64,000 nucleotides of DNA, taken from contig NZ_JAIMAV010000005.1 of NCBI RefSeq assembly GCF_023511815.1, forward strand, positions 1 through 64,000. Reading direction: 5' to 3'. Shown here one piece after another: positions 5,303 through 31,730 of the stretch (positions are counted from its first letter, which is position 1; each line of letters begins with the position of its first letter). The position numbers were made by a program, and so were the translations under genes. The notes beneath the pieces were generated by a model. It searched no databases and was not told the DNA's origin. It saw only the letters and a program-made list of their open reading frames with translations. This stretch comes from Alicyclobacillus sp. (lineage in GTDB: Bacteria; Bacillota; Bacilli; Alicyclobacillales; Alicyclobacillaceae).

Positions 5303-5337
5303 CCGGACCGACGGCCGCTGGGGGCGCACCGCCATGC

Positions 5338-5385: not shown

Positions 5386-5458
5386 ATGTTCCGGAGCGCC
5401 GGCCGCCTTGGTGCCGGCCGCTGGGGCGGGCATTCCGCGGGATCGCCCGCCGGAGTGC

Positions 5459-5917
5459 TCACGGAGAGGAGGCCGCCCGGATCTCGACGCGGGGTTCGAC
5501 GCGCACCTCCACATTGCCGCGCAGGGCGCTGGAGACCATGCAGGCGTGCTCCGCGTGTTCGCACAGGATGCGCACGTGGTCGGCCTGCCCGGCGGCGTCG
5601 GGATGGAGCAGGACCAGCGGGCGGTGTTCAATTCTATCAAACCGCAGCCCGCGGTCGTTTTCCACAAACCCGCGCGATTCCAGGCGGATCTCGTCAAACG
5701 GGATGCGCCGGTTGCGCAACAGTTTGCCGAGCGTGATGAGGTAACAACCGGCGGCGGCGCCGAGCAGAAGCTCCTCCGGGTTGGTGCCGATGCCGGGCCC
5801 ACCCAGCTCGGCGGGGATGCTGAAGGAAACGGACAGGCCGTCTCCGGAAAGCTGTCCACCTTCGTCAAGATTGGACGGCAGATGGCCGGTGACCGCGAAT
5901 TCATGCATCTGGCTCAT
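5459..5917 (-). CDS. OsmC/Ohr-family peroxide-detoxifying protein
   Basis: OsmC-fold thiol peroxidase, 152 residues, which reduces organic peroxides in the cytoplasm. Both redox cysteines are present: one in LLLGAAAGCYLITLGKLL and one in EHAEHACMVSSAL, with NPEELLLGA just before the first, as in the family. ATG at 5917 follows GGAGGG. A sigma-A-like promoter with a perfect palindrome in its spacer lies upstream on the same strand (5971-5999), so the gene is probably regulated. Confidence 0.88.
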   Translation of the reverse strand: MSQMHEFAVTGHLPSNLDEGGQLSGDGLSVSFSIPAELGGPGIGTNPEELLLGAAAGCYLITLGKLLRNRRIPFDEIRLESRGFVENDRGLRFDRIEHRPLVLLHPDAAGQADHVRILCEHAEHACMVSSALRGNVEVRVEPRVEIRAASSP

Positions 5918-5970
5918 GTGCAGGAGTCCCTCCGGATGGTTGTGAATGGGGGAATCGAAATGTTAAGGCA

Positions 5971-5999
5971 ATTGTACACCGGCGCGCCGGTGATTTCCA
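5971..5999 (-). promoter_or_regulatory. Promoter of the OsmC gene with a 16-bp palindrome in the spacer
   Basis: On the minus strand, TGGAAA (5994-5999) and TACAAT (5971-5976) are separated by 17 bases. The spacer holds a perfect 16-bp palindrome, CACCGGCGCGCCGGTG (5977-5992), a good operator candidate for a dimeric repressor. The -35 matches consensus at 4 of 6 positions. Confidence 0.5.
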
Positions 6000-6021
6000 G
6001 CGCCAAAGCGGAGGACGCCGC

Positions 6022-6951
6022 ATGCATCGGGTGAGCGCCGTCATCGCCACAAAGGACCGGCTTGGGGAGCTCGCCGGATGCCTGTCGGCCATCGCGGCGC
6101 AGCGCTTCGATGGAGCGCTGGAGGTCATCGTCGTCAACGACGGCGGGGCCAGGGTGGACGAGGTGTGCCGCGCCTTCGCCGACCGGATGGAGATCCGTTG
6201 GATCAATCTGGACGAACCATGCGGGCAGGTGGCCGCCCGAAACCGGGCGCTGTCGCTCGCCACGGGCGATCTCGCCGCGTTCTGCGACGACGACGACCGC
6301 TGGCTGCCGGAGCACGTGGCGGCCCTGGTGGACGCGCTGGACGCGCACCCGGAGGCGGTGGCGGCCTTCACCGATGCGGAGCTGGTGGAGGTTGGCCCCA
6401 TGGATGGGCGGGGCCGCGCCGGCGGCGAGGCGCGGGAATCCGGGGACAGGGGAGCGTCGACATCCGGGCGGCGCGGCCCCGGTCCCTCCTTTGCGCCGGC
6501 GTCCGCCCAGCCTACGGCCGGGCGTGTGACGGGCGAGCGGCGCGTGTTCGCGTGGCGCGATCCACTGTCCCTGCTCACCCGGTACAATCCGATCATCCCT
6601 TCCAGCCTGATGTACCGCACCCGGGTGCATGGCGTCATCGGCGGGCTCGATGAAGCGATGTCCCACTACTGGGACTGGGACTTTGCGCTCCGGCTCGCGA
6701 AGGCGGGGACGCTTCTGCGGGTGCCGCGCTGCCTCACCCTGTACGCCGTGCACACCGGCGGAGAGAATCTGTCGGCGGACCCGGCGCGGATGGCCGATGC
6801 GCGCCGGGCGCTGTTCGCGAAACACGGTCTCGTGGACACGGGGCCGAGCAATTTCTGGCGCATGTGCGCGGATCCGCGCCTGGCGCCGGAGCGGGCCGAG
6901 AGCGAACGGGTCTGGGACGGGGACCCCGCCATCTTTCATCCGCCCGTCTGA
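6022..6951 (+). CDS. Family 2 glycosyltransferase
   Basis: GT-A fold glycosyltransferase of 309 residues that moves a sugar from a nucleotide-sugar. N-terminal nucleotide-binding block VSAVIATKDRLGELAGCLSA and VIVVNDGG, then the metal-binding acidic motif FCDDDDRWLP near residue 92. A low-complexity Gly/Ala/Arg insert (about residues 130-170) sits between the catalytic motif and the acceptor region (SHYWDWDFALRLAKAG). ATG at 6022 follows GCGGAGGA with 6-base spacing. No membrane segments, so it acts in the cytoplasm. Acceptor unknown. Confidence 0.85.
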   Translation: MHRVSAVIATKDRLGELAGCLSAIAAQRFDGALEVIVVNDGGARVDEVCRAFADRMEIRWINLDEPCGQVAARNRALSLATGDLAAFCDDDDRWLPEHVAALVDALDAHPEAVAAFTDAELVEVGPMDGRGRAGGEARESGDRGASTSGRRGPGPSFAPASAQPTAGRVTGERRVFAWRDPLSLLTRYNPIIPSSLMYRTRVHGVIGGLDEAMSHYWDWDFALRLAKAGTLLRVPRCLTLYAVHTGGENLSADPARMADARRALFAKHGLVDTGPSNFWRMCADPRLAPERAESERVWDGDPAIFHPPV

Positions 6952-6990
6952 CACCCGCCGCCCGCGTGGCGCGGCGAAGGAGGCTTTCAC

Positions 6991-7350
6991 GTGGATTCCA
7001 TCATCCTGCGCAACATGACGTTCTACGGCTATCACGGGGCGTTTCCGGAGGAAAAGGCCATCGGCCAGCGATTCTCGGTCAGCCTGACGCTGTATCTGGA
7101 TCTGCGCGAGGCCGGCGCGTCCGACAGGCTGGCGGACACCGTCAACTACGCCAAGGTGTACGAGGACGTCAAACGGATTCTGGAAGGTCCCGCGTACAAT
7201 CTGCTCGAGCGGGTGGCCGAGCGCGTGGCCGAAGAGGTTCTGACCCGCCATCCGCGTCTTTGCGGCGTTCGGGTGGCCATCGAGAAGCCATCGGCGCCGA
7301 TTCCGGGCGCCCTGGAGTCTGTCGGGATCGTGATCGAACGGTGGCGGTGA
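6991..7350 (+). CDS. folB: Dihydroneopterin aldolase FolB
   Basis: Folate pathway enzyme of 119 residues that splits 7,8-dihydroneopterin to 6-hydroxymethyl-dihydropterin and glycolaldehyde. The family start IILRNMTFYGYHGAFPEEK holds the substrate-binding Glu, the middle holds the VNYAKVYEDVK block, and the catalytic Lys lies in VAIEKPSAPIPGALE. GTG at 6991 follows AAGGAGG with 7-base spacing. It stands alone here, without folP or folK next to it, unlike the usual Bacillus fol operon; those genes must lie elsewhere. Confidence 0.92.
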   Translation: MDSIILRNMTFYGYHGAFPEEKAIGQRFSVSLTLYLDLREAGASDRLADTVNYAKVYEDVKRILEGPAYNLLERVAERVAEEVLTRHPRLCGVRVAIEKPSAPIPGALESVGIVIERWR

Positions 7351-7383
7351 AAGACGTCCGACGGGCCGGGGACCGCGACGCCA

Positions 7384-8442
7384 TCAGCGGACGCGCCGGT
7401 ACAGCAGGCACGCGCCGTAGTACGTCCAGGCCGTCGGGCCGAATCGCCACACCAAGCGCCGGACCGGCCGCACATCCGGTTGCCGGCCGGCCTTGGCGTC
7501 GGACAGGTACATGGCCAACAGGCCGTGCACCACATCCTGGTGGATGCGCGCGTCCGGCAACGCCCTGGCCGCCTCGCGACTGCGGCGGGCGAACCATTCG
7601 ATGCGGCGGCGCGCCTCCTCCAGGCTGGGGTAGCAGCGGACGAAGTTGAAGTCTCCTCCCTCCAGATCCTCCTCCAGGTCAATCAGGTAGTCGAGCAGGA
7701 TGTGCAGGCCGCAGATCCAGGGGAAGTACGCCTCCATGAGGACGGGGATGTCCCGCTCCGGGAGATCGGAGGCCGCGGCGAGAAAGAGCGCGAACACCCC
7801 GAGGGTCGATCCGGTGGCCGCCGCGAACTCCCACCAGTGCACCTCGGGAAAGCGCTTTTGATGGGGTTCCCACCAGGCCACCAGCCGATCCCGGCGCAGC
7901 GCCGGGTCCACGTGCTTGTGCACCTGCAGCTCGCAGTAGCGGTCCACCAGCCAGCGGGTGACCTCGAGGATCCGCCGGTGGCCGGGAAGCCGCGTGAGCG
8001 TCTCCTGGCAGGTGCGCACCAAGGCCGCCAGGTATCCGCCGTCATCCGGGTTGCCGCGCAGGCGGTAGTAGGCCCGCGGCGGCGCGCCGGGCTGGACGGC
8101 GTCCCGCATGGCCTGATGCAGCAGGGTGAAATCCGCGTCATCGTACCGTCCGCAGCGGTCGCACAGGTTGTCCAGGTAATCGCTGATGGTCTGCAGCGCG
8201 ACGATGAGGCGCACGAGCGCCGGGGTGAAGAGGGGATGGCAGGCCGCGTACACACACCCGCCGTCGGCGTGGAATCGCTTGTGGCGCAGGCTCTGCAGCG
8301 CCTGCTCGCGCAGGGTTTCGTCCGGAATGGCCCGGGCGCGGGCGGTCCACATCCGCAACTCCGCGCGCGCCAGCGGCATCACATGGCGAAAGAGGCGATA
8401 GAGGAATTGGGGCGCCGATCTCGGGGCGGCATCCGGTTGCAC
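7384..8442 (-). CDS. ytpB: Tetraprenyl-beta-curcumene synthase (YtpB family)
   Basis: Cyclises tetraprenyl diphosphate to tetraprenyl-beta-curcumene, the precursor of C35 sesquarterpenes found in spores and membranes of bacilli. 352 residues, close to Bacillus YtpB. Family blocks seen: RHKRFHADGGCVYAA, ISDYLDNLCDRCGRYDD, and HILLDYLIDLEEDLEGGDFN, the Asp-rich stretches thought to bind the diphosphate. GTG at 8442 is chosen because GGAGGT lies 5 bases upstream; a TTG at 8502 would overlap the previous gene and adds a poor-quality basic stretch. It is probably in one operon with the upstream gene at 8489-8926. Confidence 0.85.
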   Translation of the reverse strand: MQPDAAPRSAPQFLYRLFRHVMPLARAELRMWTARARAIPDETLREQALQSLRHKRFHADGGCVYAACHPLFTPALVRLIVALQTISDYLDNLCDRCGRYDDADFTLLHQAMRDAVQPGAPPRAYYRLRGNPDDGGYLAALVRTCQETLTRLPGHRRILEVTRWLVDRYCELQVHKHVDPALRRDRLVAWWEPHQKRFPEVHWWEFAAATGSTLGVFALFLAAASDLPERDIPVLMEAYFPWICGLHILLDYLIDLEEDLEGGDFNFVRCYPSLEEARRRIEWFARRSREAARALPDARIHQDVVHGLLAMYLSDAKAGRQPDVRPVRRLVWRFGPTAWTYYGACLLYRRVR

Positions 8443-8488
8443 GGGGCACCTCCAGCCCGGCGGACGCCGCGTTCGGCGCTCCGGCCGG

Positions 8489-8926
8489 TTATTTTTTGTC
8501 AATCAACAGCTGACTCAGCTCACCCGCCCACGTCAGCATCCGGCGCGCGTTCCTGCGGTTCACGTACCGGTTCCACGGGATGGGTGCGCCGAGCAGCGGC
8601 CCGGAAAACGGGTGAGGCGCCGGTGCGTGGCTCTTGGCCTGGCCGCCGGCTTTTTCGGACGAGGTCTTGCTCTTGCCGTCCGCCTCTTCCGCCTTGGCCG
8701 ATCCCGGCGCGAACGGGATGGGATGTCCGCCGTCGTCGTCTTTCTCGTCGTTCGCACCTGGGCCGCCCGGCGCGGCCTTTGCATTCCCCTTGGCCGCGGG
8801 AGGAGGCCCGATCCACCCGCGGCGCTTGGCGCCGCGGTGAATCATCGTCACCAGCTCCTGCACCTTCTCATCCTGGGCCACGTGAAACATCAGGGAACCA
8901 AATTTGGCCAGTGAGTTCCACTGCAT
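8489..8926 (-). CDS. Unknown protein with ordered ends and a disordered middle
   Basis: 145 residues. I do not recognise the family. The first 37 residues (MQWNSLAKFGSLMFHVAQDE onward) look helical and end in a basic patch KRRGW. Residues about 40-100 are Pro/Gly/Ala/Lys/Asp-rich and probably disordered. The last 40 residues (IPWNRYVNRRNARRMLTWAG onward) again look folded. It lies directly upstream of ytpB on the same strand, 46 bases from the chosen ytpB start, so co-transcription is likely. No signal peptide or membrane helix. Confidence 0.7.
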   Translation of the reverse strand: MQWNSLAKFGSLMFHVAQDEKVQELVTMIHRGAKRRGWIGPPPAAKGNAKAAPGGPGANDEKDDDGGHPIPFAPGSAKAEEADGKSKTSSEKAGGQAKSHAPAPHPFSGPLLGAPIPWNRYVNRRNARRMLTWAGELSQLLIDKK

Positions 8927-9203
8927 GGGACCACCCCCGGACGGACACCTTCTGCTCCACCGTATGCGCCGCGCGTCTGCCGCGACGCTGCGGATGTCCG
9001 GTGGGCGGCCGGCCGGGACGCGGCTTTGCGCCGCCTGTCGTCCTCCTCTAGCTTATCCGCCGGGGTGGACCCATAGTCCGGGAAACCAGGCGGCGCGCGA
9101 GCTGTCTCAAAACCGTGGAACCGCATGCCCACCTGTGCTACTGTAGGATGGAGGCCACCGTGTTCGCCGAACCGGGGCCATCGCAGGGGAGAGGAACGAC
9201 ATC

Positions 9204-10727
9204 ATGCACGAAGTTGTGGCCATGCATCACCCGAAGGTGCAAGCTCTGCGGAACCTGCGGGCGCGCATGGAAGCGGCGGGCGACGCCGACATCGCCTCCC
9301 GGCTGGCCGATCTGGCGGACCGGTTGGAGGCGGGCGATTCGCGGCCGCACATCGCGTTCTGCGGTCTGTTCTCCGCGGGAAAGTCGAGTTTGATCAACGC
9401 GATCGCCAGGACCCAGGCCCGCCCGACGGGGGCGGTGCCGACGACCGCGGCGGTTGAGAGTTTGGAATACGAAGGTCCCGAAGGAACGCTGATCCTGATG
9501 GACACCCCGGGGATTGACTCCACGGACCCGGCGCACCAGGCGGAGATGGAGGCGGCCCTGCACCGCGCGGACGGCGTGGTGCTGGTCATGGACTACCAGC
9601 ACGTGGAGGCCGAGGAGAATCTGGAGCTGGCGCACAGCCTCCTGGCGCAGGGCAAGCGGCTCCTTCTGGTGGTGAACCAGGTCGACAAGCACGTCGATTG
9701 GGAGCTGGATTTCTCCGAGTACCAGCGGCGCGTCGAGGAGACGTTGGAGGCGTACGACATCCGCTGCGAGGGGCTGTATTACACCTCGACACGCGCGTCC
9801 GTGTACAGCCAGCTGGATGACCTGCGCCGCCACCTGGACGAGTGGGCGGCGGGCGCCGACGACGTGGCGGAGGCGGGCCTCTGGAAGAGCGTGCGGGAAC
9901 TGGTGCGCCAGCACACCGCATCCCAATTCCGGCCGGCGGTGGACGAGGCGTGGCGGCGCGTGGAAGCCGTGCTCGGTTCGGCGCCCAACGCCGACGAGAT
10001 CCCAAAGCTTCGCGAGATGCTGGCGCAGGAGTGGGCGCGTGCGGCGGACGAGCGGGATCGGAAGTTGAAGGAGGTCGCCGCCGAACGCGAGGCGGTGCGC
10101 CAGTCCTTCCTCCGCATGATTGATCTCGCGCAGATTGCCCCGTACGAGACGACGGAGCGGGGACGGCTGTACGTCGAGAGCCTCCGGCCCGACTTTCGGG
10201 TGGGCTGGTTGGGTTGGCGCGAGAAGACGCAGCGCGAACGGGCCGGCCGCAAGGCACGGTTCGTCGCCGATTTGGCGGAGCGCACCGACAAATACCTCCT
10301 GGTGCCGCTGCAGAACGCGCTGCGGGAGTGGGTGAGGACCACCCCGTGGGCGGACGCCGCATGGCTGGAGGACATTCCGGGCATTCGGCTGACGGTCGAC
10401 GAGGCGCTGGTGGACGCTCAGGTCCGCCCGGGCGCCATCGGCTCCGACACGTATCCCTACCAGTACGTCAAGGACGTGGTGGCAGCCATCAAGCGTCAGG
10501 CGTACGGGGGGCTGACGCAGGTGTTGGAGACGTGGTGGAAGGCGGCCGACGCGGCCGTCCGGGCGGCGTTGGCGCCGGTGGAGGCGCGCATGAACGACCT
10601 GCAGACGCGGTTTGACGCCATCGCCGAGTGGCAGGGGCTCGTCGCCGAACAGGAAGCGTACGCCGATCGGGTCTGGCGCGAGGTTCTGGAGGATGCGGAA
10701 GGAGGGGTGGCGGATGTCGCGGGTTGA
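9204..10727 (+). CDS. Dynamin-like GTPase, first of a tandem pair
   Basis: Bacterial dynamin-family GTPase, 507 residues, expected to act on membranes with its partner gene. GTPase motifs: P-loop GLFSAGKSS (about residues 54-62), switch I Thr in PTGAVPTTAAVESLE, G3 DTPGID, and G4 NQVDK. The rest is helical and charged (KLKEVAAEREAVRQ), as in dynamin stalks. No transmembrane helix. ATG at 9204 has GGGGAGAGGA upstream. The 3' end overlaps the next dynamin gene by 14 bases. Together the two products (507 + 663 residues) match the length of the fused two-headed DynA/YpbR protein of Bacillus (about 1190 residues). Confidence 0.85.
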   Translation: MHEVVAMHHPKVQALRNLRARMEAAGDADIASRLADLADRLEAGDSRPHIAFCGLFSAGKSSLINAIARTQARPTGAVPTTAAVESLEYEGPEGTLILMDTPGIDSTDPAHQAEMEAALHRADGVVLVMDYQHVEAEENLELAHSLLAQGKRLLLVVNQVDKHVDWELDFSEYQRRVEETLEAYDIRCEGLYYTSTRASVYSQLDDLRRHLDEWAAGADDVAEAGLWKSVRELVRQHTASQFRPAVDEAWRRVEAVLGSAPNADEIPKLREMLAQEWARAADERDRKLKEVAAEREAVRQSFLRMIDLAQIAPYETTERGRLYVESLRPDFRVGWLGWREKTQRERAGRKARFVADLAERTDKYLLVPLQNALREWVRTTPWADAAWLEDIPGIRLTVDEALVDAQVRPGAIGSDTYPYQYVKDVVAAIKRQAYGGLTQVLETWWKAADAAVRAALAPVEARMNDLQTRFDAIAEWQGLVAEQEAYADRVWREVLEDAEGGVADVAG

Positions 10728-12705
10728 GGAGCGGCTGAACGAGGCCGCATCGCGCCAGGCGCTCGTCTCGACGCTGGAGGAGGCGGCCCGGCACCTGTCC
10801 GCGACCGGCGCGCCCGCGGCGTGGCGGCGGGAGGTCGAGGAGCTGCGGGATCGCATCCGGGCTGCGACCAAGATGGTCGCCGTCTTCGGCGCTTTTTCCG
10901 CAGGCAAGTCGTCCCTGATCAACGCCCTGCTCGGCGAGCCGGTGCTGGTGGTCTCGCCCAACCCGACGACCGCCGCCGTCACCCAGGTGGCCGGGCGGTT
11001 GCCCGACGGGGCCCAGGCGCGGGTTCACTTCAAGACGGCCGCGCAGGTGTGGGAGGACGTCGAACAGGCCATGCGCTTTCTCAGCCGGCCGGCCGCGGAC
11101 CTGGAGGACGCCCTGCGCCAGGCGCGGGCGTGGAAACTGCTCGAATTCGCTCCCTCCGCTCGCCGGCACGCCGCGTTCGTCAAGGCGGTCGCCGCCGGGT
11201 ACGCCGAGGTCGCGGACCGGCTCGGGTCGGTGTTGCCGGCCTCGCGCGAGGAGGTCGGCCGGTACACGGCGCAGGAGCGGTACGCCTGCTTCGTCCAGCG
11301 GGTCGATCTCGCCGAACCGGCGCCCATCCTCGCGTCCGGCGCGGTGCTGGTCGACACGCCTGGGGTGGACTCCATCCACCGCCGGCACACGGATGTGGCG
11401 TTCGGGTACATGCAGGCGGCCGACGCCATCGTGTTCGTCCTGTATTACACGCACGCCTTTTCCCGGGCGGACCGGGAGTTTCTGCGCGAGCTCGGGCAGG
11501 TGCAGGACATCCTCGGCACCGACAAGCTGTTCGTCGTGATCAACGCCGTCGACTTGGCCAGCGATGACGAGGAGCGCGCCGCCGTTCGGGAGCGGGTGCT
11601 GGAGGAGCTGCGGCGGCTGGGTGTGAGGCGCCCGCGCGTGCACGAGGTGTCGAGCCAACTGGCGCTGGTGGCGCTGCAGTGGGCGCGGCACCCGGAGGAC
11701 CCGCGCTTTGCCGGGTTGCTTCGACAACGCCTCGGGCTCTCCGAGGGCGACGCCCTGCCGGATGCGGAGCAAATCCTCGCGCAATCGGGCATCCCGGCGC
11801 TTGCGTCGGATCTGACCGCCTTTGTCGACGGGCAGTCGCTCGCCATCGCCCGCGACGCGGTCGGCCGTCTGCTTCGCACGCGCGCGGCGGACGTGCGGCG
11901 CACCGTGGCCGCCCTTCGCGACGCCCGGTCGGCCGACGAGGCCACCCGCGCCCGCTGGCGCACGGAACAGCAAGCTCTGGCGCAGGCGTGGCGGCAGGCC
12001 GCGGCGGACGTGGCGGCGGGGGACGATCCGGTGGAGCGGGCGCTCAAGGCCGAGTGGGATGAGCTGGCGTATCACATCGGGGAGCGCGTGCGCCTGCGGT
12101 TCGCCGAACTGTTCCGAGAGGCGTTCCATCCCGGCCGGCTCCGGCCGGGCGCCGGCCGAGGCGCGCTCGAGGAGGCGGCCGCGGAGCTGGCGGACGCCAT
12201 CGCCCGCCAGCTGTCCTCGGAGGTGCGCACCTTCGCCCTGCGCGTGCAGCGGCAGACGGAGCGGGCCCTGGCGGAGCAGCGGGAGCGGATGGGCAGGCGG
12301 ATGGAGGAGGCGCACGCCGACTTGAGTCGGCTCCCGGAGCCGGATCCCGTCCCCGCCGCCGAGGCGGCGCGGGCGCAGATCTCGCCGCAGCGGGCGTCAG
12401 GGGCATTCCGGCACTTCTCCAATCCGAAACAGTTTTTCGAGGGCAACGGTGCCCAACTGATGCTCGAGGAACTGGAGGGCCTGTTCGTCCCGGATGCCAG
12501 GGCGGAGGCGGTTTCGCTCACGGAGGCGGTGGCCGCCAAGGTGACGGCGGCCTACCGGGAGATCGCGGCGGCCCTGTACACCGGCGGGGCGGCGGCGCTC
12601 GAGGACGGCGCCGGCGCAAAGCCGGATGCCGGGGCGGACGCCCAGTACGCCGCCTGGGAGGCGGCCGACACCTGGTTCGGGAATTGGTTGCGCGACGAGG
12701 CGTGA
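10714..12705 (+). CDS. Dynamin-like GTPase, second of a tandem pair
   Basis: 663 residues. GTPase motifs: P-loop GAFSAGKSSLINALLG (from about residue 59), switch I NPTTAAVTQVAG, G3 DTPGVDSIH, and G4-like INAVDLA. A long helical arm follows (residues about 330-600, RARWRTEQQALAQAWRQAAA). ATG at 10714 follows GGAGGGG with 6-base spacing, inside the end of the preceding GTPase gene, so translation is coupled and a heteromer is likely. Bacterial dynamins tether or repair membranes under stress; the exact role here is not shown by sequence. Confidence 0.85.
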   Translation: MSRVEERLNEAASRQALVSTLEEAARHLSATGAPAAWRREVEELRDRIRAATKMVAVFGAFSAGKSSLINALLGEPVLVVSPNPTTAAVTQVAGRLPDGAQARVHFKTAAQVWEDVEQAMRFLSRPAADLEDALRQARAWKLLEFAPSARRHAAFVKAVAAGYAEVADRLGSVLPASREEVGRYTAQERYACFVQRVDLAEPAPILASGAVLVDTPGVDSIHRRHTDVAFGYMQAADAIVFVLYYTHAFSRADREFLRELGQVQDILGTDKLFVVINAVDLASDDEERAAVRERVLEELRRLGVRRPRVHEVSSQLALVALQWARHPEDPRFAGLLRQRLGLSEGDALPDAEQILAQSGIPALASDLTAFVDGQSLAIARDAVGRLLRTRAADVRRTVAALRDARSADEATRARWRTEQQALAQAWRQAAADVAAGDDPVERALKAEWDELAYHIGERVRLRFAELFREAFHPGRLRPGAGRGALEEAAAELADAIARQLSSEVRTFALRVQRQTERALAEQRERMGRRMEEAHADLSRLPEPDPVPAAEAARAQISPQRASGAFRHFSNPKQFFEGNGAQLMLEELEGLFVPDARAEAVSLTEAVAAKVTAAYREIAAALYTGGAAALEDGAGAKPDAGADAQYAAWEAADTWFGNWLRDEA

Positions 12706-12730
12706 CCGGTTGAGACGAGAGAGGCGGGGG

Positions 12731-14866
12731 ATGCGGGTGAAACGAAAGGTGACGGCGGAGGACCTCTTTCGCATCGCGCTGGTCGGCGATGTGGCGATGC
12801 ACCCCGGGGGCGGGCAGGTGGCGGTGACCCTGACGCGCCTCAACCCGGAGGACAACGAGTATCACACCCACATCTGGATGGTGGCCACCACCAGCGGGGA
12901 GGCCGTCCCGTTCACCGCGGGGCCCGGGTCGCAGACCAAACCGGCCTGGTCGCCGGACGGGCGCCACCTGGCGTTTCTCGCGAAACGCGGGTCGGACGCC
13001 GCCCAGGTGCACGTGATGCCCGCGGGCGGCGGCGAGGGCGTGGCGGTGACCCACCAGGCGGAGGGGGTGGAGGCGTTTCGCTGGAGCCCGGACGGGCGGC
13101 GGATTGCCTTCGTGTGCCGGACGGCGGAATGGGCCAAGGACACGGTGAACCCCGGTGACGAACGGATCGACCCATCGCCCCGCGCGCGTTTCACCGCCGA
13201 CGTGAAGACCATCCGGCGCCTGCACTGGCGCCTCGACGGGGTGGGGGCGTTCGAGGACCGGCGCCTGCACCTGTTTGTGGTGGATCTCGCGGATCTGATT
13301 GCCCATCGCCGGCACGTGGTCTGGTCGTTCGATCCCGACGGGCAAAGCCCCGCCGTCACGGTTCGCCGTCTGACGGAAGGGCCGTTTGACATCCACGGGT
13401 TCGACTGGACGCCCGACGGCTCGGCGCTCGTGGTTGCGACCAACCGGGAGCCGGACGCGGACCGGACCGGGGCGGTGTATCTGCACCGCGTGCCCGTGCC
13501 GGCGAATCTCGCGGGCTTCGCCCAACCGCACCCGCCGGAGGCGGTGGAGCGACTGCCGGGATCGCCCGCCTTTGTCGACGGCCCGCGCTGCGCACCGGAC
13601 GGACGCCTGGTCGCCTTTTTCGGACACAACTTCGAGCACGGCATGTACACCCAGGCCGGCGTGTGGCTGTACGACCTGGCCGAGGGCCGCGCCCGCAAGG
13701 CGGTCGACGGGACGGACGGGGACTTTGGAAACGAGGCCCTGACGGATACGCGGGCGGGCGGATCGGAGGGGCTGGTGTGGGCGGATCACGGCCGCTCCCT
13801 GTACACCCTCCTCTCACGGCGCGGCACGGTGCAATTGGCGCGCATCGACCTGCGCAGTGGACGCGTGACGCCCGTCACCGAAGGGGAACACGTGATCTTC
13901 ACCTATGCTATCAACCAAAAAGGGTCTGCGGCGGCGGTCGTCCGAGGCACCCCGGTGGAGCCTGCGAACGTGTTCTGGGTGGATCTGCCAGGCGCGGAGG
14001 ACGAACGCCCGGCGCTCAGGCGCCTGACCCAGTGGAACCACGACTGGCTGGCGGAGGTGGATCTCGCTGTCCCGCAACGTTTCCGGTTCACGTCGGACGG
14101 GATGGAGCTCGACGGTTGGGTGATGCTCCCGAACACCCCGCCGCCGCCCGGCGGCCACCCGGCGGTGGTGCAGGTGCACGGCGGGCCGATGGCGATGTAC
14201 GCCGACGCCTTCTTTTTGGAGTTTCAACTGCTGGCGGCAAGCGGAATGGCGGTCGTGTACAGCAACCCCCGCGGCAGCCGCGGCTACGGGCAGGACTTCT
14301 GCGCCTGCATCCGCGGCCGGTGGGGAACGCTCGACTTCGCCGACGTGGAGGCGCTCGCCGAGGCGGCGACGGCCCGGTTTGCCCTCAACCCGGCGCGCCT
14401 CGCCATCGCCGGCGGCAGCTACGGCGGGTTCATGGCCGCGTGGGCGGTTGGGCATACAAACAGGTACAGGGCCGCCGTTGTGATGCGCGCGTGTGTGAAT
14501 GAGTACAGCATGTTCGGGACGTGCGATGTGGGGTACTTCGATCTCGACGACATCGGCTGCGCCCCGTGGGAGGACCCGGGCCCCTACCTCGCCATGTCGC
14601 CGGTGCACTTCGCCGGCAACATCTCGGCGGACGTGCTGATCCTGCACAGTGAAAACGACCTGAGATGCCCCATCGAGCAGGCGGAACAGCTGTACACCGC
14701 GCTGAAGGTCCGCGGGGTGCCGGTGGAGTTCGTGCGCTTTCCGGGGGAGAGCCACGGCCTGTCGCGCAGTGGAAAACCGTGGCACCGCGTGGTTCGCTTG
14801 GAGAAAATCCAGTCGTTTCTGATCCGCACCCTGGAGCTGGAGCCTTGGGACGCGAAACGACGGTGA
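12731..14866 (+). CDS. S9 family peptidase (acylaminoacyl-peptidase type)
   Basis: Serine peptidase of 711 residues that removes N-terminal residues or dipeptides from short peptides. N-terminal beta-propeller repeats (WSPDGRHLAFLAKRG, WSPDGRRIAFVCRTAE) gate a C-terminal alpha/beta hydrolase. Triad: Ser in AIAGGSYGGFMAAW, Asp in ILHSENDLRCPIEQAE, His in FPGESHGLSRSG. No signal peptide, so cytoplasmic. ATG at 12731 has a GAGGCGGGGG purine run just upstream. It starts 25 bases after the dynamin pair and ends 12 bases before the HtrA gene, so all four are probably one operon. A paralogue lies at 51827-53932. Confidence 0.87.
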   Translation: MRVKRKVTAEDLFRIALVGDVAMHPGGGQVAVTLTRLNPEDNEYHTHIWMVATTSGEAVPFTAGPGSQTKPAWSPDGRHLAFLAKRGSDAAQVHVMPAGGGEGVAVTHQAEGVEAFRWSPDGRRIAFVCRTAEWAKDTVNPGDERIDPSPRARFTADVKTIRRLHWRLDGVGAFEDRRLHLFVVDLADLIAHRRHVVWSFDPDGQSPAVTVRRLTEGPFDIHGFDWTPDGSALVVATNREPDADRTGAVYLHRVPVPANLAGFAQPHPPEAVERLPGSPAFVDGPRCAPDGRLVAFFGHNFEHGMYTQAGVWLYDLAEGRARKAVDGTDGDFGNEALTDTRAGGSEGLVWADHGRSLYTLLSRRGTVQLARIDLRSGRVTPVTEGEHVIFTYAINQKGSAAAVVRGTPVEPANVFWVDLPGAEDERPALRRLTQWNHDWLAEVDLAVPQRFRFTSDGMELDGWVMLPNTPPPPGGHPAVVQVHGGPMAMYADAFFLEFQLLAASGMAVVYSNPRGSRGYGQDFCACIRGRWGTLDFADVEALAEAATARFALNPARLAIAGGSYGGFMAAWAVGHTNRYRAAVVMRACVNEYSMFGTCDVGYFDLDDIGCAPWEDPGPYLAMSPVHFAGNISADVLILHSENDLRCPIEQAEQLYTALKVRGVPVEFVRFPGESHGLSRSGKPWHRVVRLEKIQSFLIRTLELEPWDAKRR

Positions 14867-14878
14867 GGAGGGACGGGG

Positions 14879-16234
14879 ATGGCGAGGGGCTGGCGCCGAC
14901 ACGACGATGCCGACTGGAGTGAGGATTGGGGCCGGAGGGGGCGCGCGCCGCGCTGGCGCCGACACGTGGGTGCCGGCGCCGCCGTGTTCGTCATCGGCGC
15001 GGCGGCGGGCTGCGCCGGCACCGCCTGGTTGATGCAGGGAGGTGCGGGCCGGACGGCCGCGCAAACCGGTGCGCTTGGGCCGGCCGCGGCGGGGGTGGGC
15101 GGCAATCCCGGCGCGGGCACGACAGGGGACGGGGGTTCCGGAACCGGCAATCCGGCCGGCCTCCCGCCGCAGACGTCGACGCCATCGAATCCGGTGTGGC
15201 CGTCCACGCCGGGGTTTGCGCCCTCGCCGTCCGGCACCCTTCCCGGGGCCGCCGGGTGGGCCGGCGCGCCGGCCGGCGCGGATGTCACCGCCGTCTACCG
15301 GGCCGTCTCACCGGGCGTGGCGACCATCACCGCGGTGACGGCCGCGGGCAAGAGCGACAATCCGCAGGAGGACATCGGGACGGGGTTTCTCATCGACAAC
15401 CAGGGGGATCTGGCCACCAATGAGCACGTGGTCAGCGGCAAGAAGACGGTGGCCGTGAAGCTGGGCGGCAGGACCTACACCGGTCAGGTGCTGGGCACGG
15501 ACCCGATGGACGACCTGGCGGTCGTGCGGATCTCGCCTCCGCCGGACGTGCGTCCGCTCTCCCTGGGCAGCGCCGAGGGCCTTCAGCCCGGCCAGCCCGT
15601 GATCGCCATCGGGAACCCGTTCCAGCTGACCAACAGCGTGTCGGCGGGCATCATCAGCGGGTTGAACCGCTCCATGCCGACGGACAGCGGGCGTCTGATG
15701 AGCGGGCTGATCCAAATCGACGCCGCGCTCAACCCGGGCAACTCGGGCGGGCCTCTGCTGAACGCCAGCGGCCAGGTCATCGGGATCAACACCGCCATTG
15801 AGAGCCCGGTGGCGGGATTCGTCGGGATCGGCTTTGCGATTCCCATCGACCGGTTCGTCCACCTGCTCCCGAGCCTGCTGCAGGGGGCCGCGGTAGATCA
15901 CCCCTGGCTCGGCATTCGTGCGCTCGACATCGATCCGGCGGTGCAGCAGCAGTTCAAGCTGCCGGTCTCTCAGGGCGTGCTCGTGATCAGCACGGTGGCG
16001 GGCGGGCCGGCGGCGAAGGCCGGGCTGCACGCGGACAGCGGCGGCGCCGACAAGCCGGTCGGAGACGGGGACATCATCACCGCGATTGACGGAAAGCCGG
16101 TGGCGGATGTGGCGGAGCTGACCTCGGCCATCAACCAGGATCGGGTCGGCCAGACGGTGACGCTCAGCGTCCTGCGCCGGGGCAAGGCCATCTCGGTGCA
16201 GGTCACGCTCGGGCCTTGGCCGGACGGCCAGTGA
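14879..16234 (+). CDS. Membrane-anchored HtrA/DegP-type serine protease with PDZ domain
   Basis: Surface quality-control protease, 451 residues. The order is: cytoplasmic Arg-rich tail, one membrane helix (about residues 30-53, AGAAVFVIGAAAGCAGTAW), a Gly/Pro/Thr-rich linker to about residue 130, trypsin-like domain, C-terminal PDZ domain (LGIRALDI onward). The triad is His in LATNEHVVSG (about 183), Asp in DPMDDLAVVRI, Ser in LNPGNSGGPLL (about 289). ATG at 14879 has GAGGAGGGA upstream. Bacillus HtrA genes answer to two-component or sigma control, but no such operator was recognised here. Confidence 0.9.
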   Translation: MARGWRRHDDADWSEDWGRRGRAPRWRRHVGAGAAVFVIGAAAGCAGTAWLMQGGAGRTAAQTGALGPAAAGVGGNPGAGTTGDGGSGTGNPAGLPPQTSTPSNPVWPSTPGFAPSPSGTLPGAAGWAGAPAGADVTAVYRAVSPGVATITAVTAAGKSDNPQEDIGTGFLIDNQGDLATNEHVVSGKKTVAVKLGGRTYTGQVLGTDPMDDLAVVRISPPPDVRPLSLGSAEGLQPGQPVIAIGNPFQLTNSVSAGIISGLNRSMPTDSGRLMSGLIQIDAALNPGNSGGPLLNASGQVIGINTAIESPVAGFVGIGFAIPIDRFVHLLPSLLQGAAVDHPWLGIRALDIDPAVQQQFKLPVSQGVLVISTVAGGPAAKAGLHADSGGADKPVGDGDIITAIDGKPVADVAELTSAINQDRVGQTVTLSVLRRGKAISVQVTLGPWPDGQ

Positions 16235-16302
16235 CCGGGCCGGGAGATTGCTCGGGGCCGCTGGGACCGTGACCGAGGGGCGTTCGGGGTTTGGACGGTG
16301 AC

Positions 16303-16338
16303 CGGGCCGGCGGACTGCATGGGGCCGGCCCGTCGTCT
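16303..16338 (+). terminator. Hairpin between convergent htrA-like and yfhO-like genes
   Basis: 9-bp GC stem (16303-16311 with 16324-16332), 12-base loop, then tcgtcttc. The phrase gtgaccgggccgg occurs at 16231-16243 and again at 16298-16310, a direct repeat in the same gap. Confidence 0.5.
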
Positions 16339-19098
16339 TCAGCCTCGGCGCCGCCAGGTCCCCCACCAGGCGGCCCCTGCGGCCGCGCCGCCGATGGCGA
16401 GTCCGAGGCTGACGAACCAAAACGGCGGCCGGTAGGTCAACACCAACCGGTGGGTCCCGGCGGGCACCCGGATGGCGGTGAGGACATCGCCGTAACCGGA
16501 GCCCGCGGGCAGGACCTGTGCCCGTTGTCCGTCCACCGTCGCGCGCCAGCCGGGATCGTACGTCTGGGACAACACCATCCATCCGCCGGCATCCGAATGA
16601 ACCTGCCACACCTGCCGGTTGGGGCCCCACACCATCAACCTCACGGTCCCCGGGATGGGCGCCAGTCCCCCCAGATCCAGGGTCATCCATGCCGGACGAG
16701 CGGGGTCCGGGTTCTCCCACACTGTCTCCTTGCCATCCGCAAACACCTTTCGCCATGGTTTCGGCCCGATGGTCCGATCCACCTGAAGCGCGCCGCTTTG
16801 TTCCGCGTGTGGTCCGCCGACCCAATGCAGCAAATCCACGGTGAACGATCCACTCCACGCCTCGCTCCGGATGCTGATCCGGGTGGCGCGATCACGCGGC
16901 CAATCGGACGGCAGCGTGATGTAGTAATCCTGGGTCGGGTAGCTGTAGAGCCAGTGTGTCACCGACCGGTCCCCGGCGGCCAGGGTGATGGAGCACAGGG
17001 GCCGCCCGTCCGCGAGCGGGGCGGGTTCGGCAAGGTGCACGCGCAGGCCGATGGCGTCCGTCGGCACCGCGGGAACCCAGTGGCTGTAGGACGCGGTCGC
17101 CCCGGGGAGGCCGAACACCGGTTCATCGCCGGCGGGCGTGACGACGTAGCGGACGTCATACGCGTCGAGGATGGACTCGGGTTGGCTCTTGAGCACCTGA
17201 TCCGTCCAGGTCAGGGCGACGGACCGGTTGTACCAGTCCGGAACCAGCGAGTCGTATCCGTTCAGCGCCGGGACGGCGTGGGCCGCACCCTCGTCGAACG
17301 AGACGGAGGTCTCGCCGAAGCCGGCGGCGCGGACCAGCGGATTGTCCGCAGGCAGGTGCGCCGCAAGGAACCGGATGGCGCCACTGGGCGCTTCGTAGGA
17401 CGCCACGGGCACGAGGACGAACGGCGACAGAAGCGCCGCCTGGCCGACGCTGGTGGCCATGGCCGCGCCGCCGAGAAGGCCCGAGGCCAAGCGGGGGCTG
17501 CGGCCGCAGGCGAGGGCGGCGATGCCCGCCGCGGCGAACACCAGCATCGGGTGGGTGTACGCGGCCGCGGGTGCGTGCGCGAGCGGCCCCCGCCAGCGGG
17601 CGAGGGTCAGAAGGACGAGGAAGCCGAGGCACCAGGCGGCGGTGCAAAGGCGCACCCGCCGATCTCCGCTGGCGAGCCGATGGACGCCGATCCCGCTCAG
17701 GGCCGCAAGGCAAAACGCCGTGAGTCCCGTGTAGCGGGCCGGAAGGCGAAAGAGGTTGAACCCCGGGACGTGAACGAGCACCCAGTCGAGACACCCGTAC
17801 CCGCCGAGCGCCAGCCCGCCGCTCACCACGGCGATGACGGCGAGCCGCCCCACCTCCGGGCTGTGGCGAAACCGGGTGGTCATGGTGGCCAGCGCGATGG
17901 GCAGCGCGGCAATCCCCACGGCACATGTGAATTCCCAGAACAGGTCGCTGTGGTCGACCGGCATCAGGGTGGACCAGGAGATGGGCACGCCCGTGTCGCC
18001 CCCGCCGATGGCAAATGGGCTCAGCCACTGCAGCCAGGCGCTCGGGGCCATGGACCCCTCGAGCAGGAAGGCGGCCGAGGGGTGCTGGCGGTCCGAGTAG
18101 CGCATCAACCCGAGGGTCGGCAACCACTGCGGCGCGGACAGGAGCAGGCCGATGACCGCCGCGCCGGCGACCGCCGCCGGCCGCCGCCACACCTTGGGCC
18201 ACACGGGGCCCCATATGGGACGCCATTTCGGACGCCACATGCGACGGCGTGCTGGGCGCCGCACCTTGTCCCACACCTTGAGCCATACGGGATGCCGCTG
18301 CGGATGGCGCGGCGCATCGCCGGTGAGGGCGGGATTCGCGTCCGGATGCGCTCGGTCCGCGGGCGTGGGGGTTCGGCGGGATCGAGCGATTTCGACACCC
18401 CACAGCAGGAGATACAGGCCCAGATAGAGAAACGTGTAGAAGGTGACCTGCGGGTGTCCGGCGTACACCATCATGGCCAGTGCGGCGGCGAGAACCGCGG
18501 CGTGCCGGGGTCGACCGGCCCCGTGAAGCAGGCATCGCGCCGCCCACGCAATCCAGGGCAGCCAGGTCATGGCGTCGAACATCTGCGTGTGCACCTGGTG
18601 TCCGATGAAAAACCCGCTCGTGATGAACGCGACGGCGCCGCCGGCCGCACCGAACCGGCTGTTCACGAGGGACCACACGAACAGATACATCCCGGTGGCG
18701 CCCGCCAGTTCGTGCGCCAGATAGGACCATTTCATCGCGGCGGACGCGGGCCCGAGCAGGAAGAGCAGGTTCGGGAGGTACAGGGGACCGGATTGCCCGG
18801 CGGCGAGAAAGGGTTGTCCGCCGAAGCTGAACGGGTTCCACAGCGGCCACTGGTGATGCCGGAAGAACCACGACAAGAGGGCGCGCTGCGGGCCGTTCAG
18901 CCGGGAGAGGTCGTCATACCCCAGGGCGTCCGAGAAGGCCCACTGGGGATAGGCGACGAGCACCAGCGCAAAGATGCCCCCAAGCGCCAGGATGTGTGGC
19001 CACCGGCCCGACGCAGGGATGCAAGAGGGTTCGGCCGAAGTCGATGCATCGGCGGCGGGCGGTCGACGACGGAATTGAAGGAGATGCCAGATTGCCAC
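16339..19098 (-). CDS. YfhO-family polytopic membrane protein with a repeat insert
   Basis: Large membrane protein, 919 residues, with many hydrophobic helices and a C-terminal extracytoplasmic domain ending in a helix and basic tail. The family markers are the early loop NPFSFGGQPFLAAGQSGPLYLPN and the late VTYDPGWRATVDG-like block (here SQTYDPGWRATVDGQRAQV). YfhO proteins resemble GT-C glycosyltransferases and in bacilli act on lipoteichoic-acid decoration. GTG at 19098 is chosen because GGAGGGG lies 5 bases upstream. Residues about 260-303 are a Trp/Arg-rich tetrapeptide-periodic insert encoded by 12-bp tandem repeats (see 18188-18319). Confidence 0.82.
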   Translation of the reverse strand: MAIWHLLQFRRRPPAADASTSAEPSCIPASGRWPHILALGGIFALVLVAYPQWAFSDALGYDDLSRLNGPQRALLSWFFRHHQWPLWNPFSFGGQPFLAAGQSGPLYLPNLLFLLGPASAAMKWSYLAHELAGATGMYLFVWSLVNSRFGAAGGAVAFITSGFFIGHQVHTQMFDAMTWLPWIAWAARCLLHGAGRPRHAAVLAAALAMMVYAGHPQVTFYTFLYLGLYLLLWGVEIARSRRTPTPADRAHPDANPALTGDAPRHPQRHPVWLKVWDKVRRPARRRMWRPKWRPIWGPVWPKVWRRPAAVAGAAVIGLLLSAPQWLPTLGLMRYSDRQHPSAAFLLEGSMAPSAWLQWLSPFAIGGGDTGVPISWSTLMPVDHSDLFWEFTCAVGIAALPIALATMTTRFRHSPEVGRLAVIAVVSGGLALGGYGCLDWVLVHVPGFNLFRLPARYTGLTAFCLAALSGIGVHRLASGDRRVRLCTAAWCLGFLVLLTLARWRGPLAHAPAAAYTHPMLVFAAAGIAALACGRSPRLASGLLGGAAMATSVGQAALLSPFVLVPVASYEAPSGAIRFLAAHLPADNPLVRAAGFGETSVSFDEGAAHAVPALNGYDSLVPDWYNRSVALTWTDQVLKSQPESILDAYDVRYVVTPAGDEPVFGLPGATASYSHWVPAVPTDAIGLRVHLAEPAPLADGRPLCSITLAAGDRSVTHWLYSYPTQDYYITLPSDWPRDRATRISIRSEAWSGSFTVDLLHWVGGPHAEQSGALQVDRTIGPKPWRKVFADGKETVWENPDPARPAWMTLDLGGLAPIPGTVRLMVWGPNRQVWQVHSDAGGWMVLSQTYDPGWRATVDGQRAQVLPAGSGYGDVLTAIRVPAGTHRLVLTYRPPFWFVSLGLAIGGAAAGAAWWGTWRRRG
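18188..18319. repeat. Eleven degenerate 12-bp tandem repeats inside the yfhO-like gene
   Basis: Eleven in-phase 12-base units, for example cacaccttgggc, cacacggggccc, catatgggacgc, catttcggacgc, cacatgcgacgg, cgcaccttgtcc, cacaccttgagc, catacgggatgc. Most begin with CAC or CAT and end with C. On the coding strand this gives a four-residue periodicity (PVWL KVWD KVRR ... PIWG PVWP KVWR). The frame is kept, since 12 is a multiple of 3. Confidence 0.75.
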
Positions 19099-19217
19099 TC
19101 GTTCCCCTCCGTGAACCCTCGCACAGTTCATCCAAGCCCTCTCCGGCAGACGGATTGGAAGTCAGGGACGGTTCGCCCGGCGAGGGGGTGCTGTCCTTGC
19201 AACCGAGGAGTGTCGCC

Positions 19218-19757
19218 ATGGGGTGTTACGGTGTCGAATGTCACGAACCGTTTTGCGCCTACGGGTGCTTCCGTGAACACGCTGCCATGGTCCGCCACCT
19301 AGTCTACCACATCACGCGGGACCCGAATGACGTGGAAGACTTGACGCAGGAGATCATGCTCAAGGCGTACCGCTCTCTGGATGGTTACCGCGGCGGGAGC
19401 TTTCGTGCCTGGTTGGCGCGCATCGCCCGCAACCACTGTTACGATGTCCTGCGCCGGCGCCAGACGGACGATCTGCCGCTGGCCGACGAGGTGTTGGCGA
19501 CGGTCGAACCGGGACCGGAGGATGTGGTGGTGTGGCGGGAGGCGGTGTGGGAGGTGGCGCAGGCCATCAATCGGCTGCCGCCGGTGGATCGGGAGATTCT
19601 CCTGCTTCGTCATGTGCATCAGTTCAGCTACGACGAAATTGCGGCGGCGGTCAACATGCGGCCGGGGGCCGTCCGCACCCGGGTCGTCCGCGCCCGGCGA
19701 AAACTGGCCGATCTCGTGGACGGGAGGGAGATTCGTGAAACACCTGAGTTGGGATGA
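19218..19757 (+). CDS. ECF sigma factor with a cysteine-rich N-terminus
   Basis: RNA polymerase sigma-70 family ECF factor, 179 residues. Region 2 is DPNDVEDLTQEIMLKAYRSL with the RAWLARIARNHCYDVLRRR end; region 4 is LPPVDREILLLRHVHQFSYD followed by a helix-turn-helix. Unusual: the first 17 residues carry four Cys (C3, C8, C13, C17; C-x4-C-x4-C-x3-C), which could bind zinc or sense redox state. ATG at 19218 has GAGGAG 7 bases upstream; starting later would remove the Cys cluster but loses the ribosome site. Its end overlaps the anti-sigma gene by 23 bases. Confidence 0.87.
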   Translation: MGCYGVECHEPFCAYGCFREHAAMVRHLVYHITRDPNDVEDLTQEIMLKAYRSLDGYRGGSFRAWLARIARNHCYDVLRRRQTDDLPLADEVLATVEPGPEDVVVWREAVWEVAQAINRLPPVDREILLLRHVHQFSYDEIAAAVNMRPGAVRTRVVRARRKLADLVDGREIRETPELG

Positions 19758-21132
19758 GGCCTGGGAGATGGTGCAGGGCGCGGATCCCGGGGAGCGCCGG
19801 GCGCATGTGGCCGACTGCCCGGTGTGCGGGGAGCGGTTGCGGCGGTGCAACGACCTGCAGCGCGCCCTGGTGTGCGCCCTGACCGCGGGCGTCGGGGCGA
19901 CGGGTGGCGACGACGAGGCGCTGCTGGCCGCGCTTCGGCGGGAGTTGGGCCATCCGCCGATGGTGGGCGCGAGCGTGGCGGGCGCGGGCGCGGGTGCGAG
20001 CGTGGGCGTGGCCGGCGCGGGCGCGGCCGGCGTGAACGCGGCGGGGCGCCGTCGGGAACCGTTCGCCGGAGCGGCGCCGAGCACCGCGCCCGGGGCGAAG
20101 GCGGACGCCGGCCCGGTGCGTCCCGCGTCCAAGGTGTCGACCGCGCCCATTCGGGTGTCTCGACCGGGGGCCCGCCGTTGGGTTCGCGCGGCGGTCGGTG
20201 TCGGCGCCGCCGCGTGTGTGGCCGCAGGGGTGTCGTGGCCAATCCTGCAGGGGCGCCTCGGCGGACGGGACCTCGCATCGGCCATCGCCGTCGCCATCGG
20301 AGCGGGGGACGCGCGGGATGCGGGGAGTCCCGTACAGGGTGGCGCCCAGCGCACAGATGCGGGACATGGCGGAGAGCGAAATGGGGCGGCCGTGGCGCCG
20401 AGCGGTGAAGAGCGCGGGTCGGCGGGACTTCCCACCGCCGCGGCCGGCGCCCCCTCCGGGGATTCGGTTTCGCCAAGCGGCGACGCTTCTGCGGACGCCC
20501 TGCCGGCTTCACGGCGCGGCGCCGGCTTTGTGACCGGCGGTGCGGGCCATACCGGCACGGCCGACGGCCGCGGGGGCGGCACGAGCGGGAGCGAGGTTTC
20601 GACGGAACAGGTGTCCACGCGAGGCACCGCCGGCCACACGGGCTCTGGCATCGTCCACGGCAACGACAGCGATGCGTCCGGTGCGGGCGCGGGCGAGGCG
20701 GGATCGACCACGGTTCAGAAGCCCGTGGGTCCCGCGCGGGTAAAGGGGCAGGTCGAGGTCCGAGCCGCGGACGGAACCCCTCTCGCCGGCGCGACGGTGA
20801 CGCTTTCGGCGGGGGGCCGTGTGCTCGCCTCCGCCCGCACGCAGAACGACGGCCAAACGCCGGTTCTGGCGTTCACCGCCCCGGCCGACCCGATGCTCAC
20901 CGGATCCGATCCGGGAGCCGAAGGCCCGGGCGTGGCGGTCTTGACGGTGCAACTGGCGGGGTATCGGACGGCCGTGGTCTATCAGGTCGGCCTCGCCGAT
21001 GGGGCGTGGATCCACCCCGTGGTCACGCTGCAGCCCGCAGTGCGGGCCAATCCAGGCCGGGTCGTGCCGGGTCCCGTCCCCGGCGCGGCTCCGGCGCCCG
21101 GATGGACGCCCTCACCGACCCTGCAGGCGTGA
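19735..21132 (+). CDS. Zinc-type (ZAS) membrane anti-sigma factor
   Basis: Partner of the ECF factor just upstream, 465 residues. The cytoplasmic head has the ZAS motif HVADCPVC (H24-x3-C28-x2-C31). One membrane helix lies at about residues 150-170 (WVRAAVGVGAAACVAAGVSW). Outside the membrane a Gly/Ser/Thr/Ala-rich stalk of about 180 residues leads to a carboxypeptidase-regulatory/CnaB-like beta domain (VKGQVEVRAADGTPLAGATV). GTG at 19735 follows GGGAGGG within the sigma gene. Signal release probably needs cleavage or loss of zinc. It is not homologous in its outer part to common anti-sigmas I know. Confidence 0.82.
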   Translation: MKHLSWDEAWEMVQGADPGERRAHVADCPVCGERLRRCNDLQRALVCALTAGVGATGGDDEALLAALRRELGHPPMVGASVAGAGAGASVGVAGAGAAGVNAAGRRREPFAGAAPSTAPGAKADAGPVRPASKVSTAPIRVSRPGARRWVRAAVGVGAAACVAAGVSWPILQGRLGGRDLASAIAVAIGAGDARDAGSPVQGGAQRTDAGHGGERNGAAVAPSGEERGSAGLPTAAAGAPSGDSVSPSGDASADALPASRRGAGFVTGGAGHTGTADGRGGGTSGSEVSTEQVSTRGTAGHTGSGIVHGNDSDASGAGAGEAGSTTVQKPVGPARVKGQVEVRAADGTPLAGATVTLSAGGRVLASARTQNDGQTPVLAFTAPADPMLTGSDPGAEGPGVAVLTVQLAGYRTAVVYQVGLADGAWIHPVVTLQPAVRANPGRVVPGPVPGAAPAPGWTPSPTLQA

Positions 21133-29996: not shown

Positions 29997-31730
29997 CTAT
30001 GGGGCCGGCGGGAGCCCATTGGGGGTGAACCGGTACCAATTCATCTGTCCGCCCGGTTGAAACCACAGGTCGTCTCCGCGCGCCTGCGCCTGCTGGACCC
30101 AGTGGCCGAGCGCGATGGCATGGAGGCGATCGTCGGCCAGCGTGAACATGGCCTGGCGGCCGGAGAAGTTCGTCATGGCCGGCTCGACGAGGTGTCGGGT
30201 CTCGAAATAAACGACGTCCCACCCCACCGCGTACCAGCTGTACTGGCCATCCCCGTTGGTCAACCGGGCGATGGGCGTGAGGTGGTTTTCCCCCTCTCGC
30301 CAGTGGTACAGCCAGATCTCCTGGACGTCACCGGATTGGGGAATGGCGGATACGGCGATGACGGCGCCATCCGCAACACGGTAGAGGCCGAATGGATAGA
30401 GTTGATACGATCCGGTGGATGCCGCCCCATCGGGATGCGATCCGGCGGATGCCGCATCGCTCGTGCTCTTCGATCCGTCAGGCGGCGGACCACCCGGCTG
30501 CGCGTTCGCCGCGGTGTCGACGGTCTCTCCGGTCAACGCCACGCCGGCTTTGGATGCCTCCGTCACCCCCGTGGCGCCACCGCCGGAGGCGGCCCTGTTC
30601 GACTTCGCCCCATCCTGGGAAAGGGTTGGGTTCGCCGGTCCGGGTGCTTCGCTCCTGTCCCCGCTTCCGCTGGTGCCATTGCCGGGCGCGGTGGCGTCTG
30701 TGGACGCGGTGCCTCCGCCTGGCGGGGTTGCGTTTGCCGGTCCGGGTGCTTCGCTCCTGTCCCCGCTTCCGCCGGTGCCATTTCCGGGCGCGGTGGCGTC
30801 TGTGGACGCGGTGCCTCCGCCTGGCGGGGTGGCGTTCGTCGGTGCGGTGTCGCCGCCTGGCGGGGAGGCGTTTGTGGACGCGGTGCCTCCGCCCGGCGGG
30901 GTGGCGTTCGTGGACGCGGTGCCGCTGCCGGGCGGGCTACTGTTACCGGACGGAGTGGCGTCTGTGGACGCCGTCCCGTTTCCCGCGGCGTCGTGCGGGG
31001 TGGCGGCCGGGGACCACCGCGTCCAACCATCCTGTGCGGGGCCGGCCTTCCCAGGACTGCCGTACACCGGCAGCGTCGTCAGGGTCACCGCATCCTCGGT
31101 GAGGCTCGCGACCGGATGGCGAAACGGGGTGTATTCGAGGACCGCGGGGCTTCGGGCCGGACCACGCTGTCCGTCCGGGCGCATGAGCGTGGGCGGGATG
31201 GGCCACCACAGCACGCCGCGGCTGAGCGCAATGGCCAAAATCCTTCCGGGCAGCGCGGCCGGGACGGTGACCCGACCCTCGGCCGTGGTGAGGGTGCTCT
31301 GGTGGAAACTGGTGCGCGGATTGACGCCATATTGCAGCACCACCGCCGCGGATCCCGGTCCGGGGGCGGGCGGACCGCTGGCGGGGATGACTCGTCCGCC
31401 CTGCACAGGGCTGAAACCCACATCACGCGCGGGTGGCGGAGGTGGTGTGGCACCGGCGGACGGTCCCGTCGCATCGCCCGGCGGTTTCGTCGGCGATCCG
31501 GGCCCCTCCGCGGCTCCGGGCCCCGGTGTGGGTGAAGTGCCTCTTTGCGCCGCACCGGAGGTGCTTGTCCGGTTGGCCGGGGAGGAGACGGCCGACGTGG
31601 TGCCCGCGACCTCTGAGGCCGCTCGCCGGTCATGGATCCACACGGAGCCGCCGAGGATGACGGCGCTGGCGGCGGCGGTCAACAGGGGCGGCCACAGCGT
31701 GGAGAGTCGGAGCGGGTGTCGCAGAGGCAT
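29997..31730 (-). CDS. Unknown surface-anchored protein with Pro/Gly/Thr repeats
   Basis: 577 residues, family not recognised. It has an N-terminal signal or membrane anchor (residues about 12-32, WPPLLTAAASAVILGGSVWI), then a Gly/Pro/Ser-rich linker, a beta-rich segment (about 130-230), a long repeat region built from 12-residue units such as NATPPGGGTAST, and a C-terminal domain of about 130 residues (YPFGLYRVADGAVIAVSAIP onward) with aromatic-rich strands. ATG at 31730 has GAGGAGG upstream. Divergent from the LapA-like gene. The opposite strand is also open across the repeats, but lacks a ribosome site and natural composition. Confidence 0.72.
   Translation of the reverse strand: MPLRHPLRLSTLWPPLLTAAASAVILGGSVWIHDRRAASEVAGTTSAVSSPANRTSTSGAAQRGTSPTPGPGAAEGPGSPTKPPGDATGPSAGATPPPPPARDVGFSPVQGGRVIPASGPPAPGPGSAAVVLQYGVNPRTSFHQSTLTTAEGRVTVPAALPGRILAIALSRGVLWWPIPPTLMRPDGQRGPARSPAVLEYTPFRHPVASLTEDAVTLTTLPVYGSPGKAGPAQDGWTRWSPAATPHDAAGNGTASTDATPSGNSSPPGSGTASTNATPPGGGTASTNASPPGGDTAPTNATPPGGGTASTDATAPGNGTGGSGDRSEAPGPANATPPGGGTASTDATAPGNGTSGSGDRSEAPGPANPTLSQDGAKSNRAASGGGATGVTEASKAGVALTGETVDTAANAQPGGPPPDGSKSTSDAASAGSHPDGAASTGSYQLYPFGLYRVADGAVIAVSAIPQSGDVQEIWLYHWREGENHLTPIARLTNGDGQYSWYAVGWDVVYFETRHLVEPAMTNFSGRQAMFTLADDRLHAIALGHWVQQAQARGDDLWFQPGGQMNWYRFTPNGLPPAP
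30634..30837. repeat. Two 102-bp direct repeats in the secreted repeat protein gene
   Basis: Units 30634-30735 and 30736-30837 differ at only about 4 positions. Each encodes 34 residues on the minus strand (NATPPGGGTASTDATAPGNG and then TGGSGDRSEAPGPA). Shorter 36-bp derivatives continue to about 30940. Confidence 0.85.

Follow-up and report, generated by a model that had tools for sequence, protein, structure and literature searches.

A species-specific, in-frame dodecamer array within a loop of a YfhO-like membrane protein of Alicyclobacillus sp.

Surveys of prokaryotic tandem repeats and satellites have described arrays with unit lengths that are multiples of three, which usually encode amino-acid repeats and are in many cases found only once (PMC6749651; PMC8161180). 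Here, we analysed a 64,000-nucleotide stretch of DNA from Alicyclobacillus sp. (contig NZ_JAIMAV010000005.1, positions 1 to 64,000; hereafter 'the window'), in which a short array of 12-base units is located inside a gene for a YfhO-like membrane protein. The window array shares several properties with the surveyed repeats, namely a short unit within coding sequence, a unit length divisible by three, occurrence in a single species, as is often the case for such repeats, and lack of relationship to the other arrays of its genome. It differs from them in being far more decayed (neighbouring units are ~58% identical), so that it would fail their regularity filters, and in occupying a loop within a polytopic membrane enzyme. 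A second group suitable for comparison are prokaryotic low-complexity regions (PMC6821194). The insert in the window protein likewise shows a bias in composition (W, R, P, V, K), is disordered and plausibly arose by DNA slippage; however, while that study stresses conserved functional regions, the window insert is conserved in no relative compared. Since accidental in-frame repeats are common, we regard the array as an ordinary case, which adds no new mechanism. It does illustrate clearly how, within one genus, repetition of DNA in frame has lengthened a loop of a membrane enzyme, with congeners keeping the empty loop.

The host protein matches the Pfam family YfhO (PF09586) with an E value of 4.3e-15 (55.6 bits compared to a cut-off of 28.5 bits), and the placement of the array in a loop of such a protein, as given in the original prediction, was confirmed. 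An AlphaFold model computed with 25 homologues reached a mean pLDDT of 84.9 and a pTM of 0.84, and Foldseek matched it to AftD (E 1.5e-10) and ArnT (E 7e-6), which assigns it to the GT-C fold. A sequence profile search of the protein against solved structures returned no match. When we looked for the acidic DxD-like motif of the first external loop, we found Asp74 to be invariant in 26 sequences and to be located after the first helix of the model. Characterised YfhO proteins act together with CsbB and GtcA in the transfer of sugars to teichoic acids (PMC8035078). The window protein has the YfhO Pfam match and the GT-C fold in common with CsbB-GtcA-YfhO systems (PMC8035078, PMC5836110), but differs from them by its loop insertion. 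A weak match to DUF4816 over the repeat remained below the cut-off and was put down to composition.

Table 1 Positions of the YfhO-like gene, its loop insertion and the repeat units in the window
Feature	Coordinates	Strand	Evidence
Gene for 930-aa YfhO-like membrane protein, GT-C glycosyltransferase fold	16339..19131	-	ORF, Pfam, AlphaFold, Foldseek
Insertion of net 61 codons between two predicted helices, specific to this lineage; ~residues 252-313 (approximate edges)	18193..18378	-	alignments, AlphaFold
Remainder of the insertion, rich in Pro/Ala/Arg and without repeats (RRTPTPADRAHPDANPALTGDAPR)	18307..18378	-	codon listing, alignment; no other genome copy
Nine degenerate dodecamers, one (RPAR) weak	18187..18294	-	codon listing, lag-12 statistics, unit table, repeat finder
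Possible tenth unit, decayed, CAT CCG CAG CGG (HPQR)	18295..18306	-	visible only via the 72-base repeat (ungapped lag-72 match)

Eleven consecutive units had originally been proposed for positions 18188-18319. The underlying periodicity stood: identity at lag 12 amounts to 0.592 in this segment, compared to a mean of 0.280 (sd 0.041, maximum 0.425) in 2000 dinucleotide-preserving shuffles (z ~7.6). The lag-12 autocorrelation suggested as a check ranked the segment first in the whole 64 kb window, with lags 24 and 36 also raised, and of all 132-base windows sampled from 284 kb of the host genome, only 0.03% reach its value. The count of eleven did not hold, as we could delimit only about nine units and a possible tenth, with positions 18307-18319 lying outside the array. 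On the minus strand the units follow a consensus of approximately CGT CCC GTG TGG. Units 1-5, read from position 18294 downwards, are CAT CCC GTA TGG, CTC AAG GTG TGG, GAC AAG GTG CGG, CGC CCA GCA CGC and CGT CGC ATG TGG, followed by units 6-9, CGT CCG AAA TGG, CGT CCC ATA TGG, GGC CCC GTG TGG and CCC AAG GTG TGG, the last of which ends at 18187; the encoded tetrapeptides are HPVW, LKVW, DKVR, RPAR, RRMW, RPKW, RPIW, GPVW and PKVW. Tandem Repeats Finder (TRF), run at a minimum score of 30, listed nothing at this position because the units of the decayed array are too diverged. With head-to-tail copies above chance, in frame inside a coding sequence, the array is nevertheless a tandem repeat; the regularity demanded by standard detectors, which it lacks, is a practical survey criterion rather than part of the definition.

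Is the four-residue pattern a property of the DNA or of the protein? The original prediction had argued for the DNA level as the period appears in all frames. This is not a valid test, since any 12-base period in DNA, of whatever origin, appears as a period of four residues in all frames. Duplication at the DNA level is nonetheless borne out by the relationships among the units, which reveal a higher-order repeat of 72/84 bases that had gone unmentioned in the prediction. The best ungapped self-matches of the 18188-18319 region occur at lags of 84 and 72 bases, and a repeat finder reported 48-nucleotide copies spaced by 12, 60 and 12 bases, with the copies at 18185 and 18257 (+72) being 73% identical. 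Accordingly, neighbouring units agree on average in 7.0 of 12 positions and units two to five steps apart in 5.6-6.0, compared to 8.7-9.5 for units at distances of six to seven. As units six to seven apart are more alike than neighbours, at least two rounds of DNA duplication took place, followed by decay. This pattern is expected from duplication of a block of six to seven units and would not be expected from a tetrapeptide kept by selection alone. The order of the duplications cannot be reconstructed because the units are too diverged.

The array makes up most of a longer insertion of net 61 residues in one loop, which the original prediction had likewise not described; ~24 residues of the insertion are non-repetitive and not accounted for by the repeat model. 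The host falls within the Alicyclobacillus macrosporangiidus genus group. Both congeners (63-64% protein identity) have 61 residues fewer net at this site, with the loop reading ...ETRRSVRWRR... or ...ETRRSVPWRR..., and alignment to the two proteins showed that the frame is intact on both sides of the insert. The number of array copies in the congeners is zero (one genome per species compared). Conservation of the insert in distant YfhO homologues had been named as the observation that would speak against the original prediction; we found the insert in none of 18 family homologues, the two congeners included, and in none of 74 named homologues, in which the distance from anchor to anchor is 36-67 aa compared to 104 aa here. 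An alignment-based scan of genome contigs gave matches, a scan with the single sequence none. Given its absence in congeners, family homologues and named homologues, the insert is derived in the window lineage. Residues 267-311 mostly have pLDDT values below 50 in the AlphaFold model and are flanked by confident helices (227-253 and 313-331), so that the insert is predicted to form an unstructured loop between helices. Judged by helix counting and its Arg/Lys content, this loop would be on the cytoplasmic side. The congeners (L003, L004) carry a different insertion of 20-21 residues in another loop, near window residue 204, which is absent in the window protein; loops of the YfhO-like enzyme often change length.

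Taken together, the array can very probably be classed as a degenerate intragenic minisatellite that keeps the frame, is confined to one species and occupies a loop of a YfhO-like GT-C glycosyltransferase. We infer that a short GTG(CGG)TGG-bearing stretch of the ancestral loop was multiplied through slippage or unequal recombination into units of 12 bases, that a block of six to seven units would then have been duplicated again, and that the copies would afterwards have diverged through point mutation. The loop DNA of a congener reads CGA TCC GTG CGG TGG CGC CGC at the junction and thus already contains GTG...TGG CGS, as found at the end of a repeat unit. The array itself ends in GTG TGG CGG CGG, which resembles this junction and makes the native loop a plausible seed, although the resemblance comprises ~6 matching bases and could be due to chance. 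Since 12 and 72/84 are divisible by three, the duplications left the reading frame intact, and the enzyme presumably tolerated the insert because the loop joining the two membrane helices lacks structure and probably faces the cytoplasm. The insert probably serves no specific function.

Alternatively, selection could maintain the repeat as a cationic, Trp-rich cytoplasmic loop at the membrane interface that tunes the glycosyltransferase or binds a partner. Trp occupies position 4 in seven of the nine units and the array contains 11 Arg/Lys residues, in line with such a role. The ratio pN/pS between units is 0.70, compared to 1.02 in a neutral simulation (95% range 0.67-1.61; one-sided P 0.0495), a value which is marginal under this simple model and compatible with a possible weak constraint at the protein level without demanding it. 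However, periodic Trp needs no selection, as Trp is coded by TGG only and the DNA repeat bears TGG; moreover, the insert is missing from every relative compared and the loop is predicted to be disordered. We hence consider selection for such a loop unlikely, and even less credit is given to the idea that the Trp/Arg/Pro tetrapeptide loop, having arisen from a DNA repeat, was co-opted as a membrane-interface or partner-binding element in the YfhO enzyme of this one species. The insertion could also represent foreign DNA brought in by recombination, in which the repeat had formed beforehand at another place, and the non-repetitive Pro/Ala-rich stretch upstream of the array would fit such an event. 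Still, searches of the host genome for the array unit by DNA, pattern and peptide yielded no second copy, no ends of an element were apparent and the array is similar to the native loop at its 3' edge, which leaves this origin with very little probability.

The single site also bears on the assumption of a dispersed or mobile 12-bp element that inserts and expands at any site where the frame permits. The scan for the 12-bp consensus that had been proposed along with this idea returned only the array's own site, and comparison of the 40-aa array peptide with 41 family genomes gave chance-level matches (best E 0.006). With a looser TGG pattern we did find other 12-bp arrays across the order, some of them perfect, as the assumption would predict; their units and reading frames are, however, unrelated to those of the window array. 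In the long pieces of the host genome sampled for this purpose (554 kb), TRF detected 42 arrays (score >=60), corresponding to 76 per Mb, 26 of which have periods that are multiples of three. Densities in A. macrosporangiidus (G001) and in a further genome (G002) are 54 and 17.5 per Mb (pooled ratio 2.3, P 0.001, with only a small contrast to G001 alone), and tandem arrays are thus frequent in the Alicyclobacillus lineage of the window. Sampled host arrays consist of unrelated units with periods spread over 8-144 bases, and a preference for 12 as period was not present in sampled arrays of the host or of the relatives G022, G032 and G040. A mobile or dispersed 12-bp element is thereby largely refuted and has hardly any probability left. 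What remains of the originally proposed frame-sparing 12-bp expansion is a local, in-frame event, but not a general genome-wide repeat, given the single site and the many periods.

Further arrays were observed in the course of the analysis. Within the window, a strong tandem array with periods of 36/72/102 bases (TPPGGGTASTDATAPG-type repeat) is located at 30623-30936 in an ORF of 577 aa (29997-31730, minus strand), for whose protein product the two congeners contain no relative. Positions 1-20000 of locus L195 on host contig C98 contain eight arrays (score >=60) with unrelated units in 20 kb and constitute a local repeat hot spot. In the relative G032, a 41-base unit is repeated ~26 times (92% matches) at L280 14650-15712, accompanied by other arrays within the same 20 kb. 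Eleven identical copies of CTCCAACCAAAC are present in the relative G021 at L238 1504-1638; as the copies match by 100%, this array is a recent 12-bp expansion, and L239 harbours a similar, near-perfect array.
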